Source: a virus. Taken from it: a stretch of DNA of 46,428 nucleotides. A model generated the notes under the pieces. The model searched no databases. It saw nothing but the letters and a program-made list of their open reading frames with translations, and was not told the DNA's origin. A program made the position numbers and the translations under genes. Below, piece by piece: positions 6,656 through 33,893 of the stretch; the first letter of the stretch is position 1; each line of letters opens with the position of its first letter. The stretch lies in the IMG/VR virus record IMGVR_UViG_3300036790_000070, positions 1-46,428 of that record. One strand, written 5' to 3'.

Positions 6656-7308
6656 CAGAAGTACCTCACTTTTGGTTTGCTCGCCTGGTCGTTGTATTCC
6701 AACCAGGCTTCGGTGAACGGCACAAGAATACGCTTCGTATCCTTGGTTGGCAACTGGGCATCGAACATCTTGTCGATTCCCCGGCCAATCAAGCCGCAAA
6801 CGTCCGCGGCGTCATCCCATCGGCCCGCAGGGAACTTGATCAATTGCTCGACTACCCGCTCCGCCCACGGCGTCATTGGAAAGTGAACCGCCTTCGCCGT
6901 TGCCATGGCGTGGAACGCCTGGAGCTTGATGGCTTTGTCCTGGAGCGAGGGGAGCGACTCGATCGCGACGAATGCCCGCGCATCGCGCATTGACTTTCGG
7001 ATCGAGGGGCCGATCGCCTTGTCAATCAGGCCGCCTTCGTTGAAATGCTTGATGGGCTTCCACTTGCGCACGAGCCGGATGAATTGCGCAATCCCCTTGT
7101 CGGTCTCGACCTGTCCATTCCACCAGTCGAGCGCCCAGAGTTCGCTCTTGGCCGATAACCCGAACACCGCATGTTCCGTAAAATCCGGCTCCTTTTTCCC
7201 CGCGCGCGGCTCCATTGTCGCGAAGTCACTGGCCGAATAAATACGAAGCGATGCGGGTCGCGCGATCTGCATGTACTCTTCGAGGTTAGCGTGTGCTATG
7301 AATCGCAT
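6655..7308 (-). CDS. Large terminase, nuclease domain (separate ORF)
   Basis: A 217-aa protein corresponding to the C-terminal RNase H-like nuclease of large terminases. LRIYSASDFAT carries the first catalytic Asp (D28), PDFT a second acidic residue (D42), LWALDWWNGQ is the strand that follows, and GRWDDAADV (D165, D166, D169) supplies the late acidic cluster. It would cut concatemeric DNA at the start and end of packaging. It lacks the ATPase domain, which is encoded by the overlapping upstream ORF 7296..8339 in another frame. The first 19 residues before ASLRIY do not resemble the usual junction and may come from an insertion. The start ATG lies inside the end of the ATPase gene with no clear ribosome site, so expression may depend on coupling or frameshifting. 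Confidence 0.85.
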   Translation of the reverse strand: MRFIAHANLEEYMQIARPASLRIYSASDFATMEPRAGKKEPDFTEHAVFGLSAKSELWALDWWNGQVETDKGIAQFIRLVRKWKPIKHFNEGGLIDKAIGPSIRKSMRDARAFVAIESLPSLQDKAIKLQAFHAMATAKAVHFPMTPWAERVVEQLIKFPAGRWDDAADVCGLIGRGIDKMFDAQLPTKDTKRILVPFTEAWLEYNDQASKPKVRYF

Positions 7309-8339
7309 GCGGGAAGTGCCGGGTTATACCAGCCGAACATTTCGGCGTTGAAGTGGATGCCAACGTCCGGCGCTGGCCGCTGCTGGTAGAGCGCGCCCCA
7401 GGTGCGAGCGGCGCGCGGGTTCTTCTCCCAGGTCCACCAATGCTCTGGCGGGAACCACTCGGGCCAAAGGTACTCGCCGACCTTTCGGCCAAGGGGGTCG
7501 CCCTCACGCTCCGATTTTGCCTGTAAACACAGGACTTCCCACGTTTGGTTGTCGCGGCACTTGATTAGCCCGCTCTCCCCCGCATAGTCGAGCGGGAGAA
7601 TCGAGCCAGAGAGATCCTCTTCGTGCCATCGAGTCTGAATGATGATCACCCACATCTTCGGCTTCGCGCGAGTCATCGCGGTGTCGATGTACTCGTTGTA
7701 GGTTTTCTCCCGGATCGTCGCCGAGTCGGCCTGCTCGCGGTTGGCTACCGGATCATCGATGATAACGCCATCAGCCCTATTCCCGGTGATGCCCGCGAGC
7801 AGACCGGCTGCCATCATGCTACTTCCGTTCGACAATTGCCAGTCGTCCACCGCGCGCTGGTCATCGTTCAGCGTCGGCCGCTCCTGCCAGAGCGAGGTGT
7901 AGCGCGGATCCTTGCAGATGGTACGGACTTTGCGCGACTGCTTGGCCGCAATTCCTGTGCCATAGGAGGCGAGAATGATCTGCGTGCCTGGGTTTCGCCC
8001 CATGATCCAGGCCGGCGCAACGACCGACGCGTAGGTTGACTTGGCCGAGCCCGGCGGCGCGAAGATCATGAGCCGCCCGCGAGCCGTCTCGATGCAGCGC
8101 TGAATTGCCTGCATCATCAGGAGGTGGTGCGGGGCCACCCGCGTCTCAATCGGCGTGAACGCGACGGGCATGCGCTCGATCGGGTCGATTAGTTTCCCGG
8201 TAACTGGATCCTCCAGGTCCGGCGCGTCGGTCATCGGGATCGCCGGTATGTCGATTGCCTGCGAGAACTCCGCAAGTGATGTGCGGGCTCGACGACGGCG
8301 TTGCAGCTCGCTCGCGAGATGCTGATGGGTGGGCTCCAT
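7296..8339 (-). CDS. Large terminase, ATPase domain (separate ORF)
   Basis: A 347-aa protein with the packaging-motor ATPase. Walker A FAPPGSAKST is at residues 93-102, Walker B GVIIDDPVAN at 191-200 and the coupling motif QTRWHEEDLSG at about 237-247. The adenine-binding and arginine-finger region precedes these with HHLLMMQAIQRCIE. The protein ends HFNAEMFGWYNPALPACDS, which is the linker that in full-length terminases continues directly into the nuclease domain, so the gene is cut at that linker. It overlaps the nuclease ORF by 13 bases (7296..7308). Upstream is the small-terminase candidate. Confidence 0.92.
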   Translation of the reverse strand: MEPTHQHLASELQRRRRARTSLAEFSQAIDIPAIPMTDAPDLEDPVTGKLIDPIERMPVAFTPIETRVAPHHLLMMQAIQRCIETARGRLMIFAPPGSAKSTYASVVAPAWIMGRNPGTQIILASYGTGIAAKQSRKVRTICKDPRYTSLWQERPTLNDDQRAVDDWQLSNGSSMMAAGLLAGITGNRADGVIIDDPVANREQADSATIREKTYNEYIDTAMTRAKPKMWVIIIQTRWHEEDLSGSILPLDYAGESGLIKCRDNQTWEVLCLQAKSEREGDPLGRKVGEYLWPEWFPPEHWWTWEKNPRAARTWGALYQQRPAPDVGIHFNAEMFGWYNPALPACDS

Positions 8340-9481: not shown

Positions 9482-9496
9482 CGCAATTAGCGTGCC
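9482..9496. repeat. 15-bp direct repeat, copy 2
   Basis: Second copy (CGCAATTAGCGTGCC) of the repeat at 9253..9267, ten bases before the first TTAGACA site. Confidence 0.6.
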
Positions 9497-9505
9497 AAAC
9501 AGCGA

Positions 9506-9961
9506 TTTAGACATGCGTTATGTAGTGTCTAAAGTTTTGTCTAAGTGTAAGCCATTGATCGGCTTGCCGAAAAATGCCCTTTAGACAACTTAGACACTTT
9601 AGACACTTAAAATATACCTATCCCATGCAGGTGCGCGCACACGCACATGCGCGCACGCACACATGCGCACGCACACACGCAATACCGGGTTGACTTTTGA
9701 CCGTCCAATCTGTCTAAAGTGTCTAAAAGTATTTTTTCGCTATACGAATCATCGACTTGCACTTAGACACTTATTTAGACACCTCGTGTAAAAACACCTA
9801 AAAGTGTTAAATAGTTTGTCTAAAACGAATACAGTTCTTGCATATTTGGAACTATTCCATGTAATATCGCTCGGTTTCACCAACCAGGAGCTGCCATGAA
9901 CGATAATGTAGGCTACGACATCCGCACCGAGATCCAATCTGCAACCGAGAATTTGTCTAAA
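9506..9961. repeat. Array of twelve TTAGACA sites with dyad organisation
   Basis: TTAGACA (or its complement TGTCTAA), mostly with an extra flanking T/A, occurs at 9506, 9526, 9538, 9580, 9589, 9598, 9711, 9720, 9762, 9774, 9817 and 9954. In order the orientations are: forward; reverse, reverse; forward x3; reverse x2; forward x2; reverse; reverse. Within groups the spacing is 12 (9526/9538), 9 and 9 (9580/9589/9598), 9 (9711/9720) and 12 bases (9762/9774), so the left and right halves mirror each other about a centre near 9654-9658. The last site is inside the coding sequence of 9896..10321. This is typical of cooperative protein-binding sites or iterons. Confidence 0.88.
9631..9681. repeat. 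51-base alternating purine-pyrimidine tract (Z-DNA potential)
   Basis: Every base from 9631 to 9681 alternates purine and pyrimidine, made of GC, AC, GT and AT steps (for example GTGCGCGCACACGCACATGC at its start). Such tracts can adopt left-handed Z-DNA under negative supercoiling. Its centre (9656) coincides with the symmetry centre of the TTAGACA array, and AT-rich AAAATATACC lies just to its left. Confidence 0.85.
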
Positions 9962-10321
9962 GAAGTACGTAGGCGCTTCCGGAGCCGCGCGATACGTGCC
10001 GTCGTCCGCCAGAACGAGCATGTGTCTCTGGACAAAATCACTCCGCTATTCGATATCTCCAGGGCCACCTACTACAACCTGATGGCCGAACTCGAAGCGT
10101 GGGAAGAGAAGCAATCAGGCGACACTGAGGCGCGCGAGATATCCACCCTTGGTATGTACCGTGGCAGCGTGTGGAAACTCGTCTCGGGCCGGCTCCTGCT
10201 GGCGTATGCCAGGAATCTGCTCGACTCCGAGACTGAAGCCCTCATCGAAAGGCGCAACGCGGAATGCGACACCCTATTAGACGTGGCGCCGGAACGGATA
10301 GTAGATCCGCTATTGCAATAG
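9896..10321 (+). CDS. First early gene: putative HTH DNA-binding protein
   Basis: A 141-aa protein with a basic N-terminal region (EVRRRFRSRAIRAVVRQNEH) and a possible helix-turn-helix at about residues 44-64 (VSLDKITPLFDISRATYYNL, where DISRATYYNL would be the recognition helix). The second half is helical and acidic. Start at 9896 follows CCAGGAG six bases upstream. It is the first gene rightward of the control region, and its codons 20-22 contain a TTAGACA-type site, so autoregulation or a role as the site-binding protein is an attractive inference. I do not recognise a specific family. The left arm of the 52-bp inverted repeat begins seven bases after its stop. Confidence 0.75.
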   Translation: MNDNVGYDIRTEIQSATENLSKEVRRRFRSRAIRAVVRQNEHVSLDKITPLFDISRATYYNLMAELEAWEEKQSGDTEAREISTLGMYRGSVWKLVSGRLLLAYARNLLDSETEALIERRNAECDTLLDVAPERIVDPLLQ

Positions 10322-10327
10322 CCAGGC

Positions 10328-10379
10328 CTATTTAACCTGTAATTTCGGCGGCTGAAAGATTATGCTCGTTGTTATTATG
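10328..10379. repeat. 52-bp inverted repeat, left arm
   Basis: This segment is the reverse complement of 10886..10937 with 51 of 52 positions matching (the exception pairs T10373 with C10892). It contains a run of TTTAACCTGTAATTTCGGCG and then GCTGAAAGATTATGC. It starts just after the stop of 9896..10321 and is separated from its partner by 506 bases. No coding role is evident for this arm as it stands. Confidence 0.93.
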
Positions 10380-10383
10380 TAAA

Positions 10384-10433
10384 TGACAATTTGTGTCACT
10401 TTGTGACCGTCACATTGTGACCAGAATTGTCAC
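10384..10433. promoter_or_regulatory. Tandem GTCAC/GTGAC dyads (operator-like)
   Basis: Two adjacent 13-bp palindromes, GTCACTTTGTGAC (10395..10407) and GTCACATTGTGAC (10409..10421), form a 14-bp tandem repeat. They are preceded by TGACA-ATTTG-TGTCA (10384..10398) and followed by a half-site GTCACC (10429..10434). Regularly phased short dyads of this kind are typical repressor sites. They lie 115-150 bases upstream of 10536 and just inside the left arm of the inverted repeat. The Cro-like protein at 15765..15989 or the protein at 9896..10321 are possible binders. Confidence 0.65.
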
Positions 10434-10535
10434 CGTGCGGCGCGTCAAGAGCTAGCCAGCCTGCCAGTTGACCGATTCGCCGGTGGCACGGCCCGTGCAT
10501 ATACCTAATTGTCAGCAACAAACCGGAGATTTCAA

Positions 10536-10703
10536 ATGAGCGGCAAGAAACCGACCTACAAGGAGCTAGCAGATACGATCAGACACGTGCAAATAATTCT
10601 AGGTAGAGCGCCCCAGAGCCCTGGACTGATTGGTCCCGGTGAATTGTCGCCTACCGCGGTTATAAATGCGATCAAAGTAGCGGTCGCTACGGTGCGTGTA
10701 TGA
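10536..10703 (+). CDS. Small early protein inside the inverted repeat
   Basis: A 55-aa protein beginning MSGKKPTYKELADTIRHVQI and ending VINAIKVAVATVRV. I start it at 10536 because GGAGA lies six bases upstream; a TTG at 10509 would add nine residues without a ribosome site. It is mostly helical with a Gly/Pro loop (APQSPGLIGPGE). It overlaps the next gene by four bases. No family is recognised; it and its neighbour are the only genes enclosed by the 52-bp arms. Confidence 0.6.
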   Translation: MSGKKPTYKELADTIRHVQIILGRAPQSPGLIGPGELSPTAVINAIKVAVATVRV

Positions 10704-10933
10704 TGCGCATCGAGTTACAGGAAGCGTTCCCTGGGTCCAACGGGGGGCGCGGCGGCTGGCACTGGAGATTAGTAATAAATCGCGGGGGGCTTGAGCAAGT
10801 ATTAGCTAAAGGGTTTGCAGAAACAGCAGATGGCGCGTTATATGCGGTAGTTATGGAAGCGCGCTTGTACCGAAAAGATATTTTCCATAATCACAACGAG
10901 CATAATCTTTCAGCCGCCGAAATTACAGGTTAA
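10700..10933 (+). CDS. Small early protein ending in the right arm of the inverted repeat
   Basis: A 77-aa protein (MMRIELQEAFPGSNGGRGGW...). It has a Gly/Trp-rich start followed by an alternating pattern (HWRLVINRGGLEQVLAKGFA) and a helix, then an Asn/His-rich stretch FHNHNEHNLSAAEITG coded partly by the repeat arm. It starts by ATGA overlap with 10536..10703. Codon use contains more A/T-ending codons (TTA, ATA, TAT) than the replication genes. Function unknown. Confidence 0.6.
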   Translation: MMRIELQEAFPGSNGGRGGWHWRLVINRGGLEQVLAKGFAETADGALYAVVMEARLYRKDIFHNHNEHNLSAAEITG

Positions 10934-10937
10934 ATAG
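10886..10937. repeat. 52-bp inverted repeat, right arm
   Basis: Partner of 10328..10379. It includes the last codons of 10700..10933 (ending LSAAEITG and TAA) plus four bases. Because the arms are inverted copies, flipping the segment between them would leave that C-terminus intact. Confidence 0.93.
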
Positions 10938-10947
10938 AGGAGCATTT

Positions 10948-11361
10948 ATGAACGGCACGAAACCGACTAACATCGTAACCCGCGAGTTTCGCGGCGCACG
11001 TCTCTATCTGCAATCGAACAATCGCGCAGCTCGCTACTGGTCATGGACCGCGGACAAAGCCAAAGCGATGCGCTTATTCATGAACGATGCGCTTGATTCG
11101 AGCGAACGCGCGGCGCGTGAATGGGGCGCGAAATGCGCGGTCATCGATGCGCAAGGGAATCTCGCGGCATCCGATGCGCAAGCCGGGCAGCCCCTCATCA
11201 TTGGCACACGCAAAATCACCGAGCTTGGAACCAACGACTATGCGGTGGGTTGCGCGACGTGCGGCTTCGCATCGAGCAAAGCGCTGACCATGGCACACGC
11301 AGTGCGCATTGCCACGCGCGATTCTAAGAAGAGCTGCAAGGCTTGCGGAGCGCAATCATGA
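10948..11361 (+). CDS. Early protein with a C-terminal zinc-ribbon-like motif
   Basis: A 137-aa protein with GCATCGF and SCKACG near the C-terminus, two CxxC pairs about 34 residues apart that would fit a zinc ribbon. The N-terminal two thirds are mixed alpha/beta with an Ala/Arg-rich helix. RBS is AGAGGAG five bases before ATG. It may contact nucleic acid or host RNA polymerase like other small phage zinc proteins, but this is inference. It overlaps 11358..11606 by four bases. Confidence 0.65.
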   Translation: MNGTKPTNIVTREFRGARLYLQSNNRAARYWSWTADKAKAMRLFMNDALDSSERAAREWGAKCAVIDAQGNLAASDAQAGQPLIIGTRKITELGTNDYAVGCATCGFASSKALTMAHAVRIATRDSKKSCKACGAQS

Positions 11362-12227: not shown

Positions 12228-12362
12228 ATGCGTTACACCGTCAAAGAGCATTGCGGCGCATCGTGCGTATTTTACGGCCCTCAGCTTGTGTGCGCGGCAA
12301 CCACTATTGAGTTCGCGGAGCTGATCGCAAAATTACTCAACGCCGAAGGAGCCCAAGAATGA
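12228..12362 (+). CDS. Very small early protein
   Basis: A 44-aa ORF starting one base after the preceding TAA and overlapping the next gene by four bases (ATGA). It reads MRYTVKEHCGASCVFYGPQL then VCAATTIEFAELIAKLLNAE, a small sheet followed by a helix with three Cys. Tight packing at both ends supports it being real. Unknown function. Confidence 0.5.
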   Translation: MRYTVKEHCGASCVFYGPQLVCAATTIEFAELIAKLLNAEGAQE

Positions 12363-12961
12363 TATCCCTCATCGCATTAGCCGTAGCGCTTCAAGGCGCG
12401 CCGTGCATGGCGCCACCGATCGCGCCGCGCAAAGCCCATCACCACAAAGCGTTGCCGTTTGCACCGTTGCCCATCCCGCAATGCGAAACGGTCATCATGC
12501 CGGCGCCGGCCGATGATATCGAGCCCATCCCTACCCCTGGAGTGTATTCGTATTATGTTTGGGCTGAGCCGACACCCGATATGGCCGCCGTAGAGGCCGC
12601 CTATGCGCCGACCTTCGTAGCAGGTGGCGGAGCCTACATCGTCCAAGGATCGGCTGGCACGCGTGGAGCCAATGGCGCCAGCGGTACGCCTGGAGTCAAC
12701 GGCCGTAGTGGGACTAACGGCACAAACGGAGCCAATGGCGCCAGCGGTACGCCTGGAGCGAATGGCACCAACGGTGCGCCTGGAGCGAATGGCGCTCCGG
12801 GTCCCGCTGGCCCTACAGGGCCAATCGGTCCGCAAGGCCCTAGCGCGCCACCCGTTGCGCATCATCACCATGAAGCGCCCGAGATAGATACAGGCAGCGG
12901 CATATCCGCATTGATGCTGCTATTGGGACTGCTGGCCGTCCTATCCGGGAGGCGCAAATGA
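12359..12961 (+). CDS. Secreted collagen-like protein with C-terminal membrane anchor
   Basis: A 200-aa protein with four parts: a short hydrophobic N-terminus resembling a signal peptide (MISLIALAVALQGAPC); a His/Pro-rich region (residues 20-95); an uninterrupted collagen-like Gly-X-Y region (about 97-163, rich in GANGASGTPG and GTNG units); and a His-rich spacer leading to a C-terminal hydrophobic helix with basic tail, GISALMLLLGLLAVLSGRRK. The last part resembles the tripartite C-terminal sorting or anchor signals of exported Gram-negative proteins. It sits among early genes, not with the tail fibre, so it probably acts in the infected cell envelope. Function unknown; adhesion, receptor masking or superinfection exclusion are guesses. 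Confidence 0.75.
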   Translation: MISLIALAVALQGAPCMAPPIAPRKAHHHKALPFAPLPIPQCETVIMPAPADDIEPIPTPGVYSYYVWAEPTPDMAAVEAAYAPTFVAGGGAYIVQGSAGTRGANGASGTPGVNGRSGTNGTNGANGASGTPGANGTNGAPGANGAPGPAGPTGPIGPQGPSAPPVAHHHHEAPEIDTGSGISALMLLLGLLAVLSGRRK

Positions 12962-15989: not shown

Positions 15990-18133
15990 CCGAGTTCGAA
16001 GAATACGTCGCGGAGGGCTGGAAGCTCTGCGCGATCGAGCGCGGGCAGAAACTGCCCCACTACCTCAAGTGGAACGTCAAGCCGATCCCCGACGATGCGG
16101 TAGGCGGCTTGGAGGGCGCGGGGCTATTGCACGCTCTTAGCGGAACGTGCGCGTTGGACCTTGATAATTTGGAATTAGCAAGACCATGGCTCGCGGAGAG
16201 AGGAGTTGATGTAGATGTACTTCTGTCTGACGTATCGGCAGTGCGTATCGATTCTGGGCGCGACGGCCGTGCCAAATTGCTCTATACCATGCGGAGGCCC
16301 CTGCGTACGCTTAAGCCATCTGGGAGTGGTTGTGAACTACGTTGCGCAACGGCAAGCGGAACTTCAACGCAAGACGTTCTTCCCCCTACGGTCCATCCAG
16401 TAACGAAGCGCCCTTATCAGTGGCTTTACCCCGAGCCCCTTATCGGAGATTGGCGAAACCTCCCACCAATCCCGGCGGCGCTACTCGCGTGCTGGCGCTC
16501 GCTGATCGCTGATGGCGAAGACGCACCCGCTATACCCAAGGCTGACAATGCACCGAAAACCCCGCTCGACAAGCTCCGCAAAGCCGCGTTCCGCCATGAC
16601 CCAGACTGCGAGTATGACGAGTGGATCAAAGTCGGCATGCAATTGCACGACGGTACGGGCGGCGCGCAGGAGGGCTTCGATATCTGGGAAGAATGGTCGC
16701 AAGGCATCAAGCGCGCCGCATATCCCGGCGAAGTGGTGCTCAAAAGCCATTGGCTATCGTTCGGTGCTGGCAGTGGAAAGCACCTTGCGTCGGGTGAGTC
16801 GCTTGCAGCAGAGCTACCAGCGGAAGCTGAAGACTTCCCCATCGAAGAGCCCGACCAGGAGCCGGCCACGGCCAACGGCAAAGAACTAGAGCGGAAGAAT
16901 GCGCTCGATGCGTTGATACAGCGCTTCGTCTTCGTCATCTGGGAGCAGGAGTATTTCGACACCGAGCGTAACGTCATCATCGGTGACAAAGCTATTCGGC
17001 ATTTGCTCACGCCCTACATGCCGCGGAAAAGCGGCAAAGAAATCGATCCGATAGACAAGCTGATGCGCTCGAAGCAGAAGGATGCGGTAGAGGCACTCGC
17101 GTTCCATCCCGGCGAGAAGCCGATATTCACCTACAACAGGAGGCGCTATGCGAACACTTACTACAACCAAGCGCCGGAGCCGCTCGAACCGACAGCCGAA
17201 GAGCTTGAGAAAATCAATTGGCTCTTCGACCGCATCGACGATCCGATGTACCGCGAATGGCTCCAACAGTTCTACGCGCACATGGTGCAACAACCGGGCA
17301 CCAAGATTCGAAGCGCTCCACTAATCTGGTCGAGGACTCAAGGCAATGGCAAATCTACGCTCGTGGGCACGATACCTAAGCTGCTTGTTTCAGAGGCATA
17401 CTACGTGGAAGTTACCAGTGGAATGCTCAATTCAGATCACAACGACTACCTTATCGGCAAATGGCACGTCACCCTTGCTGAGTTTAGAGCCGGAACTCGG
17501 GGAGAGCGTGAATCTATTAGTAAAAAAGTCGAGAACTGGATCGCTGACGATGTATTGTCGATCCACCCCAAGGGTACTAAAGGTTATTCAATCCCAAATC
17601 ATCTAATTGTCACGGCGAGCACCAACAAAGAAGACGCGGCGAGCATAGACGAGAACGATCGCAAGTGGGCGATCCACGAGCTGCACGCGCCGAAGATGAC
17701 GGCAAGCGAAAAGCTCTGGCTCTTTCGTGATTATCTCAACGGCCCGCGCGCCGCGGCGACGCTACGTCATTACTTCACGCACTTACCGCTCGGCAATTTC
17801 GATGCGAATGCCGATGCGCCGCGCACAGCGGCGCGCGCCGCGATGATCGATGCGTCCGCCTCTGGCGACTTCGAGCTATTGCAGCGTGCTTGGGAGGAAC
17901 GCTCCGAGCCGCTCGCGAAGAACGTGGTGATTACGGGCGAAGTCGCCGATTATGTGCGCATCCACAGTCCGGTAAAACCCTCCAACGACCGCATTGGCAA
18001 GCTTCTTGCAGTCCCCCCGTTCAATGGCAGCGCGATCAAGTTTCACCTCGGCGAATCTTGGTACCGTGCCGCGGTGTTGCGCGGACCAGGGCGGAAGCAT
18101 ATTCGAGGTGATGATATTGACTTGATTGCCTGA
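15986..18133 (+). CDS. Primase-helicase (PriCT-type and SF3-like ATPase domains)
   Basis: A 715-aa replication protein. The N-terminal 190 residues resemble the primase/polymerase-like domain (LHALSGTCALDLDNLELARP has the acidic strand; VSAVRIDSGRDGRAKLLYT follows). Residues 200-240 (FRHDPDCEYDEWIKVGMQLH) match the primase C-terminal 2 (PriCT-2) helix bundle. The helicase part starts near 420; Walker A SRTQGNGKST is at about 450 and NHLIVTASTNKEDAA at about 540 is the sensor-1-type strand of viral superfamily 3 helicases. It would unwind the fork and prime lagging-strand synthesis with the family A polymerase (22823..24895). GTG start overlaps the regulator's stop (GTGA). Confidence 0.85.
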   Translation: MTEFEEYVAEGWKLCAIERGQKLPHYLKWNVKPIPDDAVGGLEGAGLLHALSGTCALDLDNLELARPWLAERGVDVDVLLSDVSAVRIDSGRDGRAKLLYTMRRPLRTLKPSGSGCELRCATASGTSTQDVLPPTVHPVTKRPYQWLYPEPLIGDWRNLPPIPAALLACWRSLIADGEDAPAIPKADNAPKTPLDKLRKAAFRHDPDCEYDEWIKVGMQLHDGTGGAQEGFDIWEEWSQGIKRAAYPGEVVLKSHWLSFGAGSGKHLASGESLAAELPAEAEDFPIEEPDQEPATANGKELERKNALDALIQRFVFVIWEQEYFDTERNVIIGDKAIRHLLTPYMPRKSGKEIDPIDKLMRSKQKDAVEALAFHPGEKPIFTYNRRRYANTYYNQAPEPLEPTAEELEKINWLFDRIDDPMYREWLQQFYAHMVQQPGTKIRSAPLIWSRTQGNGKSTLVGTIPKLLVSEAYYVEVTSGMLNSDHNDYLIGKWHVTLAEFRAGTRGERESISKKVENWIADDVLSIHPKGTKGYSIPNHLIVTASTNKEDAASIDENDRKWAIHELHAPKMTASEKLWLFRDYLNGPRAAATLRHYFTHLPLGNFDANADAPRTAARAAMIDASASGDFELLQRAWEERSEPLAKNVVITGEVADYVRIHSPVKPSNDRIGKLLAVPPFNGSAIKFHLGESWYRAAVLRGPGRKHIRGDDIDLIA

Positions 18134-31907: not shown

Positions 31908-33893
31908 TTATTTAAGCATGTAAGTGAAGGTTGTAGAATTGAGACCCTTTTGACCTGTTGCCGTGAACCCTGTAGCGCTGTATGCAGTTCGAAGCGTAGC
32001 TGTCGAAATAACCTCAGAAAAGAAAGATATCGTCCCGCTGTTCTGCACCAAGGCGGCGCCGGATATGTTGATACCGTTGTCCTCCAGCACACAGGGACAG
32101 AATTGGCCAGCTGAGGACGCTCGAAGCGCGACGGGTAATCCGGTCAAAGTCAATGCGGTGCTGTTAGACGTGGAGGTTATGGTTCCTGCGCCGCCCACTC
32201 GCATCGTGACGAGGTTCCCCATCTTGCACCACGTCATGGTGCCAGTCGTTACGATCGCGACGCCCGTTATGGTGCCGATGAAGCTGCCGGTATCTGGGGT
32301 CATGTCAACGAGCGCCGCGGCTGTTGGTCCGAGCCCTTGGATGGAGTTCGTCGCGAGGACCATCGTCGCAGCATCGTTCACTATCAACGACAGGGGCGTG
32401 TTGCTGAACGCTCCCATTGATATGCCGCCTGTGGTGTCGATCGCTAGTAGGCCAGTGCCTACGCTGTTTTCCCATTCAAGCGCGGTGTACGCCACGTTTG
32501 AAGTTTGGGACAAGGAGATCGCCACGTCATGCGCTTGGGGGAACAGCAATCCCTGATAGCCGCTCGCGTAGCTCACCGTCATTGCCGCGGAAGGACCGCC
32601 GACGTTGATGCTCGCCGGGCCGTTGAAACGCGCAGGGCCGAAGTTGCCGGGGATCGGATAGCACATCCCGTCGTCGTTTGTCGTATCATCCGCCGCTAGG
32701 TAGGCGCCGAGTGGAAGAGTGCTGCTAAGCGGCACCTTATTGATGTAGTAACCAGCGCCGACGTTTATAGTTCCGGGGCCCATCGCGCCGGGCGAAGCTG
32801 CCGTGGAAACCACGAAGCTGCCGTCTTGGTATAACCCCATCAACGGCCCTAAGCTTGAGCTAGTCCATTGAGATTGGAAGGTTGTACCGTCGCCGTTTCC
32901 GGCGGCTATCTTCAGCCCTTGGAGATGCGCGCCAGCGGGAGACAGCGAGAGAACGGGCCCCGCTGTGGCGCCTAGCATCGTCACGTTCCCGCCGCTCTGG
33001 ATGATTATATTTTGAGAGGTGGCCCCCACCCCTAACGCTATGCTGTTGTTGGCTTGAATCTGTAGCCCAGAGGTGTTGCCTGTAGCTATTATGCTTGCGT
33101 TTGTGCCCCCAATGTACAGAGTACCTAGGGTTGCCCCCACCGTCGCTATCGTCATGGTGGTTTGAACAGTCGCGGCGTGGAAAGCCGCGTTCTGCCACGC
33201 CAAGCTGCCAGCCGGAACAATTATATCTTCTGGATATCCATAATCCTCGGGAAACAGCACTACCGCGGGGCCTCCCCCTCCGCCAGTGCCCGCAGGGCCC
33301 TGCGGACCTTGGGGGCCGGTATTACCCGTCGCTCCGAGCGGACCCGGAGGACCCGGCGGCCCGAGATCACCATCCGCGCCGTCGTCCGCCAAGAAGAACA
33401 CGACAGGCCCCGCGGGACCTACGCCCCCCGGAACGCCGGCATTGCCTTGGGGCCCGGTAGCGCCAAGCGGTCCCGGGGGACCCGGCGGCCCGAGATCGCC
33501 ATCCGCGCCGTCATCGGCCAAGAAGAACAATCCGGGTCCCTGCGGGCCGGCCGCGCCCGCGACGCCCCGCTGCCCCGGCGGACCCGGGGGCCCGTCATCG
33601 CCCGGAGGCCCGTCTTCGCCCGATAGGCCGATGGGAGCCGTCAGCCGGATCTCGATCGTGCCTACGAGCGTGCCGCCGCCGGAGAGCCCCGGTCCTAAGG
33701 TGATGACGGGATTGTCACCGTTGCCGATGTTCCCACCGCCGTTGTTGGTGTTCAAGCCGAGCAGGCTTGCGAGCTGCGTCAGTGTGAGGGTCGTCCCTTC
33801 GAGCCCTGTGATGGTGGTCCCGCTCGATGTAGAGGCGCCTACCTGGATGACCTTGCGGAGACCGCCCAGGACGGGGACTTGGACTTTCTTCAC
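31908..33893 (-). CDS. Collagen-like tail fibre/receptor-binding protein
   Basis: A 661-aa protein starting at GTG 33893. Residues 1-90 form a virion-attachment region ([13 protein letters not shown] and [13 protein letters not shown]). Residues 92-210 contain three collagen-like Gly-X-Y blocks, with a near-identical duplicated segment [20 protein letters not shown] at about 123 and 166. The remaining 440 residues are glycine/serine/threonine-rich beta structure, consistent with a trimeric shaft and tip, ending STTFTYMLK. Collagen-like blocks often trimerise phage fibres. It would bind the host surface. No chaperone domain is visible at its C-terminus. GTGA overlap with the preceding gene. 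Confidence 0.8.

Follow-up and report, generated by a model that had tools for sequence, protein, structure and literature searches.

Background

Two phage segments known to be invertible are the G segment of Mu, with Gin, and the C segment of P1, with Cin. The locus described here resembles them in that inverted repeats surround a gene-bearing segment. However, the Mu and P1 segments come with a serine recombinase and with crossover sites that are short and defined, and they enclose tail-fibre genes, whereas in our locus no serine recombinase was detected and a predicted promoter is enclosed instead.

A second point of comparison is the bacterial sigma54 promoter with an upstream enhancer, whose consensus is TGGCAC-N7-GC. 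Our locus shares this motif, and has an array of dyads at a fixed position about 100 nt upstream. It differs in that the sites are predicted ones in phages, and in that the sigma54 activator domain (PF00158) was detected in none of the eight records searched, some of them fragments, so that an activator would have to come from the host.

A third comparison is with DNA produced by template switching. Template switching between inverted repeats, with homogenisation of the arms and inversion of the spacer, is described in yeast genes (PMC8604942), template switching is presented as a source of RNA hairpins (PMC8794818), and quasipalindrome mutations in Escherichia coli are traced to it (PMC7202029). 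Events of the quasipalindrome type are like the one that we propose in that a short stretch is copied from the nearby opposite strand, the inverted arms are near-perfect and the neighbouring sequence can form a hairpin. They differ in scale: our arms are 56 nt long with a spacer of 498 nt, as against arms from 7 bp and spacers of up to 70 in the yeast study (PMC8604942).

We conclude that the repeat in our locus is real, that it is probably an inverted duplication of an incidental nature, and that it lies next to a conserved sigma54-type control element.

The inverted repeat and its surroundings

The window, by which we mean the whole stretch of DNA analysed, is a virus record 46,428 bases long, whose two ends carry a 127-bp direct repeat. 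The terminase large subunit is encoded on the minus strand (7296-8339), while gene A and, further on, a primase and a DNA polymerase are encoded on the plus strand. We refer to the sequence between the minus-strand terminase and the plus-strand genes as the control region. The inverted repeat sits between gene A (9896-10321, plus strand) and gene D (10948-11361, plus strand). Gene A encodes 141 aa with a weak resemblance to helix-turn-helix proteins, below the Pfam cut-offs, and has relatives in other phages of the group. Gene D encodes 137 aa.

A first-pass annotation of this DNA had reported arms at 10328-10379 and 10886-10937 that are reverse complements at 51 of 52 positions. This is borne out, and the match even grows to 54 of 56 positions when the left arm is taken as 10328-10383 (plus strand) and the right arm as 10882-10937 (minus strand). 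The two differences are 10373 versus 10892 and 10380 versus 10885. Self-comparison of the window gives the repeat an E-value of 1.8e-19, and no other separated inverted pair of at least 30 nt is present in the window; the other inverted pair of at least this length is an overlapping palindrome at 17810-17859, with 75% identity. A search with a 21-nt piece of the arm, allowing two mismatches, finds two sites in the record and no more. The existence of the inverted repeat is thereby confirmed.

The contents of the segment were also described largely correctly. GTCAC dyads are present between the arms (10395-10421), and the two open reading frames that had been taken for small genes exist on the plus strand: ORF B (10536-10703; 55 aa) and ORF C (10700-10933; 77 aa). 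That they are genes is plausible but unproven, as neither matches any family. The 3' end of ORF C lies inside the right arm, with its stop codon at the last-but-four bases, and it is true that inverting the segment would keep ORF C intact; this follows automatically whenever one arm of an inverted repeat extends over the end of a gene. Both arms have close neighbours: the 5' edge of the palindrome that contains the dyads adjoins the left arm, and the AGGAG ribosome-binding motif of gene D begins directly after the 3' border of the right arm.

Searches for the arms in other genomes

We fetched 90 loci, two of which are the window itself; the part of this set found through the terminase consists of the best 80 of 183 matches. 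A search with the DNA polymerase added two loci, one of them in a 47-kb record (G001) whose terminase is 70% identical to the window's. Neither arm matched outside the window in the 90 fetched loci (blastn, E 0.1; terminase part the best 80 of 183), and the left arm had no match in any of the 88 other loci. A scan of the window and these 88 loci for inverted repeats (870 kb, in which some loci overlap, L003-L006 are unrelated and the terminase part is again the best 80 of 183) returned one pair only, namely the arms. An exact 23-mer of the arm was found 0 times in viral_contigs and 0 times in genome_contigs, and a distant blastn comparison of the region with phages and plasmids gave no match. 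Copies in other phages and hosts, for which the first-pass annotation had suggested looking, were thus not found at the sensitivities used among relatives, phage and plasmid records, viral contigs and bacterial genomes. These comparisons support the view that the arms are private to this phage.

An arm that is seen in a single metagenome-derived record, with no second genome over the site, might have been added by a chimeric molecule or by an error of the assembler. Inverted chimeras are known to arise from amplification, which lends this explanation some plausibility. However, an insert of 56 nt needs two separate junctions, and the arms differ at two positions, unlike a fresh copy. We therefore consider an artefact very unlikely.

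A conserved sigma54-type module between the arms

A 50-bp palindrome of GTCAC/GTGAC dyads (10384-10433), which we presume to be an enhancer, starts at the first base past the left arm. A sigma54-type -24/-12 site (TGGCACGGCCCGTGCA, 10484-10499) lies on the plus strand, 100 nt downstream of this start. As DNA, the palindrome folds into a hairpin of -14 kcal/mol (z -4.5). In blastn searches it was recovered without the arms in six relatives (L014, L015, L017, L023, L031 and L035), and the alignments of L014, L023 and L035 start at 10384, exactly where the left arm has ended. The distance from the start of the palindrome to the TGGCAC-N7-GC site is the same, 98-100 nt, in seven distinct phages: the window, L014, L015, L023, L031, L035 and L091. 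L017 was left out of the seven, as it ends ahead of the expected site. Averaged across all 21 pairwise comparisons, identity is 72% for the palindrome and 77% for the 17-nt site, as against 39% and 38% for the 40 nt that precede and follow the site, respectively; these values are ungapped, and L015, which is one base shorter, pulls down the figure for the palindrome. The -24 GG and -12 GC elements with exact spacing, the conserved surroundings and the upstream presumed enhancer, found together in these seven phages, are what is expected of a sigma54 promoter.

The module is not confined to phages with this terminase. L091 carries it in a record without a detectable relative of the terminase, and in G004, which likewise has no detectable terminase relative, such a site also follows the palindrome, but farther away. 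A scan of viral sequences for the GTCAC pattern gave nine stretches. Four of them (L092, L093, L095 and L097) have a common sequence type that lacks a sigma54-type site, and we treated them as a different kind of element; two (L094 and L098) were dropped, being on the same contigs as L035 and L031. L096 is short, and a wider piece of it (L110) has the palindrome and then TGGCAC-N7-GC at a longer distance, which places it outside the seven. The same scan of bacterial genomes gave three stretches.

On the strength of these sequence patterns, we infer that the enclosed module may be a sigma54-dependent operon that an enhancer-binding protein from the host would activate. In the explanation that we prefer, the working unit is this enclosed module, i.e., the GTCAC dyads, the -24/-12 site and the genes behind it. 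The first-pass annotation had noticed the dyads but not that they belong to a conserved sigma54-type promoter module, one that exists independently of the arms. In our opinion this control element deserves more attention than the repeat: its conservation in a group of uncultured phages suggests that their gene expression is tied to a host regulator.

The position of the module in the relatives also bears on the idea that the segment is a small mobile element that carries ORFs B and C between terminal inverted repeats. The long repeats at the ends, and the two ORFs of obscure origin, would fit such an element. However, the enhancer and promoter enclosed here occupy the matching place in relatives without arms, there is no further copy in the genome or in the collections searched, and inspection of the flanks by eye revealed no target-site duplication. 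We found no support for this idea, and regard it as extremely improbable.

Possible inversion of the segment

The segment had also been proposed to be invertible. Recombination or annealing of the arms would flip it, so that the sigma54-type promoter would no longer face gene D and the genes that follow. Arms of 52-56 nt do flank a putative promoter, and inverted repeats can undergo inversion of the spacer through template switching, according to the yeast study (PMC8604942). However, neither PF00239 nor PF00589 matched in G000 or in five other records, in searches whose controls worked; no tyrosine or serine recombinase is thus detectable in the record, although an enzyme of the host or one of an unfamiliar kind might still act on the arms. 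In addition, the promoter is directed away from the terminase in all five terminase relatives inspected, as it is in the window, although these relatives lack the arms, and the repeat itself is not conserved. A switch of this kind is therefore quite unlikely, and the notion of a dedicated one is unsupported.

Inversion retains some probability because genes for an exonuclease (phrog_69) and a Gp2.5-like annealing protein (phrog_112) are present in the phage. It is conceivable, if highly improbable, that these two proteins occasionally flip the module by annealing, such that part of the population keeps the operon silent. In that case, a sigma54 promoter would undergo phase variation in a phage that has no dedicated recombinase.

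Possible function at the RNA level

Another suggestion was that the arms form the stem of an RNA. In RNA that reads through from gene A they could pair as a long duplex enclosing ORFs B and C and be cut by RNase III, or RNA of the left arm could act as antisense on the C-D junction of transcripts begun at the sigma54-type site. A 646-nt stretch does fold with the arms paired (-262 kcal/mol, z -7.9 versus 20 shuffles), although such folding is expected of any long inverted repeat, and the arms alone fold no more than usual. No terminator-like site was found on the plus strand between gene A and the left arm, and the last base of the right arm directly precedes the AGGAG motif of gene D, both of which would suit a function in RNA. 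However, a transcript begun at the sigma54-type site does not contain the left arm, and relatives with the same promoter module lack such arms.

Compensatory changes would be a sign of a conserved RNA stem. No relative among the 88 other loci has the arms, and both differences between them place a U opposite a C, so neither is a wobble pair that keeps a stem. Thus, the proposed stem would form in read-through RNA, while no sign of selection for it was found, and a function in RNA is in our estimation unlikely.

Origin of the repeat

Given these observations, we favour the explanation that the repeat is a recent, private inverted duplication that arose by a template switch during replication, beside a hairpin-forming enhancer, and that it has no dedicated function (probability roughly 0.6). 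A replication template switch would have duplicated a 56-bp stretch, inverted, about 500 bp away. The source was likely the right arm, at the 3' end of ORF C, and the copy is likely the left arm, which came to lie between gene A and the conserved sigma54-type enhancer. This enhancer is a palindrome that adjoins the left arm, and it probably helped, in that its hairpin would stall the polymerase.

As would be expected after a template switch, the inverted arms are near-identical and have no counterpart in relatives (88 other loci, the terminase part being the best 80 of 183). The first-pass annotation had listed a duplicated element among its possibilities, and this one gains support, since the arms are private and relatives have the enclosed GTCAC module without them; overall, its interpretation is partly supported. 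Arms that are both private and nearly identical must be either young or kept alike.

The ORFs that precede the palindrome in other phages suggest that it was the left arm that was inserted. Both L023 and L015 have an ORF that continues straight into the palindrome and leaves no room for an arm (L033, L034 and L048, where the site is near the start of the contig, were ignored in this reading). The L023 ORF has no detectable similarity to gene A, so the parallel is one of position only. In addition, ORF C is without relatives, and the right arm could for this reason be the copy. Both the direction of copying and the ancestral state have to be inferred, because no sister genome covers the site; the closest species, that of L011 (92% in the terminase), is represented by a contig that ends before reaching it.

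It is important to consider two observations that fit a template switch less well. The nine bases that separate the arm from the stop region of gene A (10319-10327) are unaccounted for by it, and the arms end near functional borders, namely the start of the palindrome and the ribosome-binding motif of gene D, which is what a functional explanation would predict. Taken by itself, the repeat looks like an evolutionary accident, although it does capture a fresh inverted duplication with an enhancer palindrome at its edge.

Sigma54-type sites across the phage group

We surveyed terminase-related loci (L011-L088, from the best 80 of 183 matches) for additional sites. There are 81 occurrences of the pattern TGGCACG-N4-[TG]TGC across 78 loci (726 kb), whereas the reversed pattern occurs 2 times and ten dinucleotide shuffles gave 0-4; the count of 81 is inflated by overlapping or near-identical loci that were kept, e.g., L059/L060/L062 and L061/L064. 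For the 59 loci with a terminase position entered, 56 of 72 sites lie at most 2.6 kb upstream of the terminase, a stretch that makes up 118 of 525 kb; overlap inflates these counts as well. The wider surprise is this concentration of sigma54-type sites in the control region of the group, and the phages concerned may depend widely on host sigma54. In a literature search on sigma54/RpoN and phages, of partial coverage, the titles and opening lines of abstracts mentioned no sigma54 promoters in phage genomes. A putative sigma54-like factor is reported to be encoded by a Pectobacterium phage (PMC7693777).

Sigma54-type sites occur on both strands in the terminase-related loci. The window itself has a second one on the minus strand (TGGCACGCTAATTGCG, 9482-9497), directed to the terminase side. 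Also in the control region, an array of TTAGACA/TGTCTAA motifs at 9524-9823 forms an inverted repeat of 88 nt with 70% identity, and by eye the relatives have other repeated motifs at the corresponding place. Such arrays are possible operators or an origin.

Enclosed ORFs and other repeats

Scans with single proteins found no relatives of gene D or gene A, while a profile search with gene A found six loci, of which five are on contigs of loci already in the set and one is new (L105). For ORF C, a single-protein scan gave matches in four loci that we attribute to chance, the frames around the match being filled with stops in L003 and L006. The predicted fold of ORF C is too poor for use (mean pLDDT 50), and a search against PDB sequences gave only matches with E-values of 0.5 and 1.3. 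Rfam and tRNA searches of the window found none.

The starts of ORF B (10536-10560) and gene D (10948-10972) share a direct repeat of 25 nt with 84% identity. G001 contains the start of a relative of gene D, and a gene in G001 begins in a similar way. An insertion ahead of gene D may have brought in ORFs B and C. Elsewhere in the window, repeats at 12656-12820 and 33325-33566 fall inside ORFs with collagen-like Gly-X-Y stretches (12359-12961, plus strand, and 31908-33893, minus strand).
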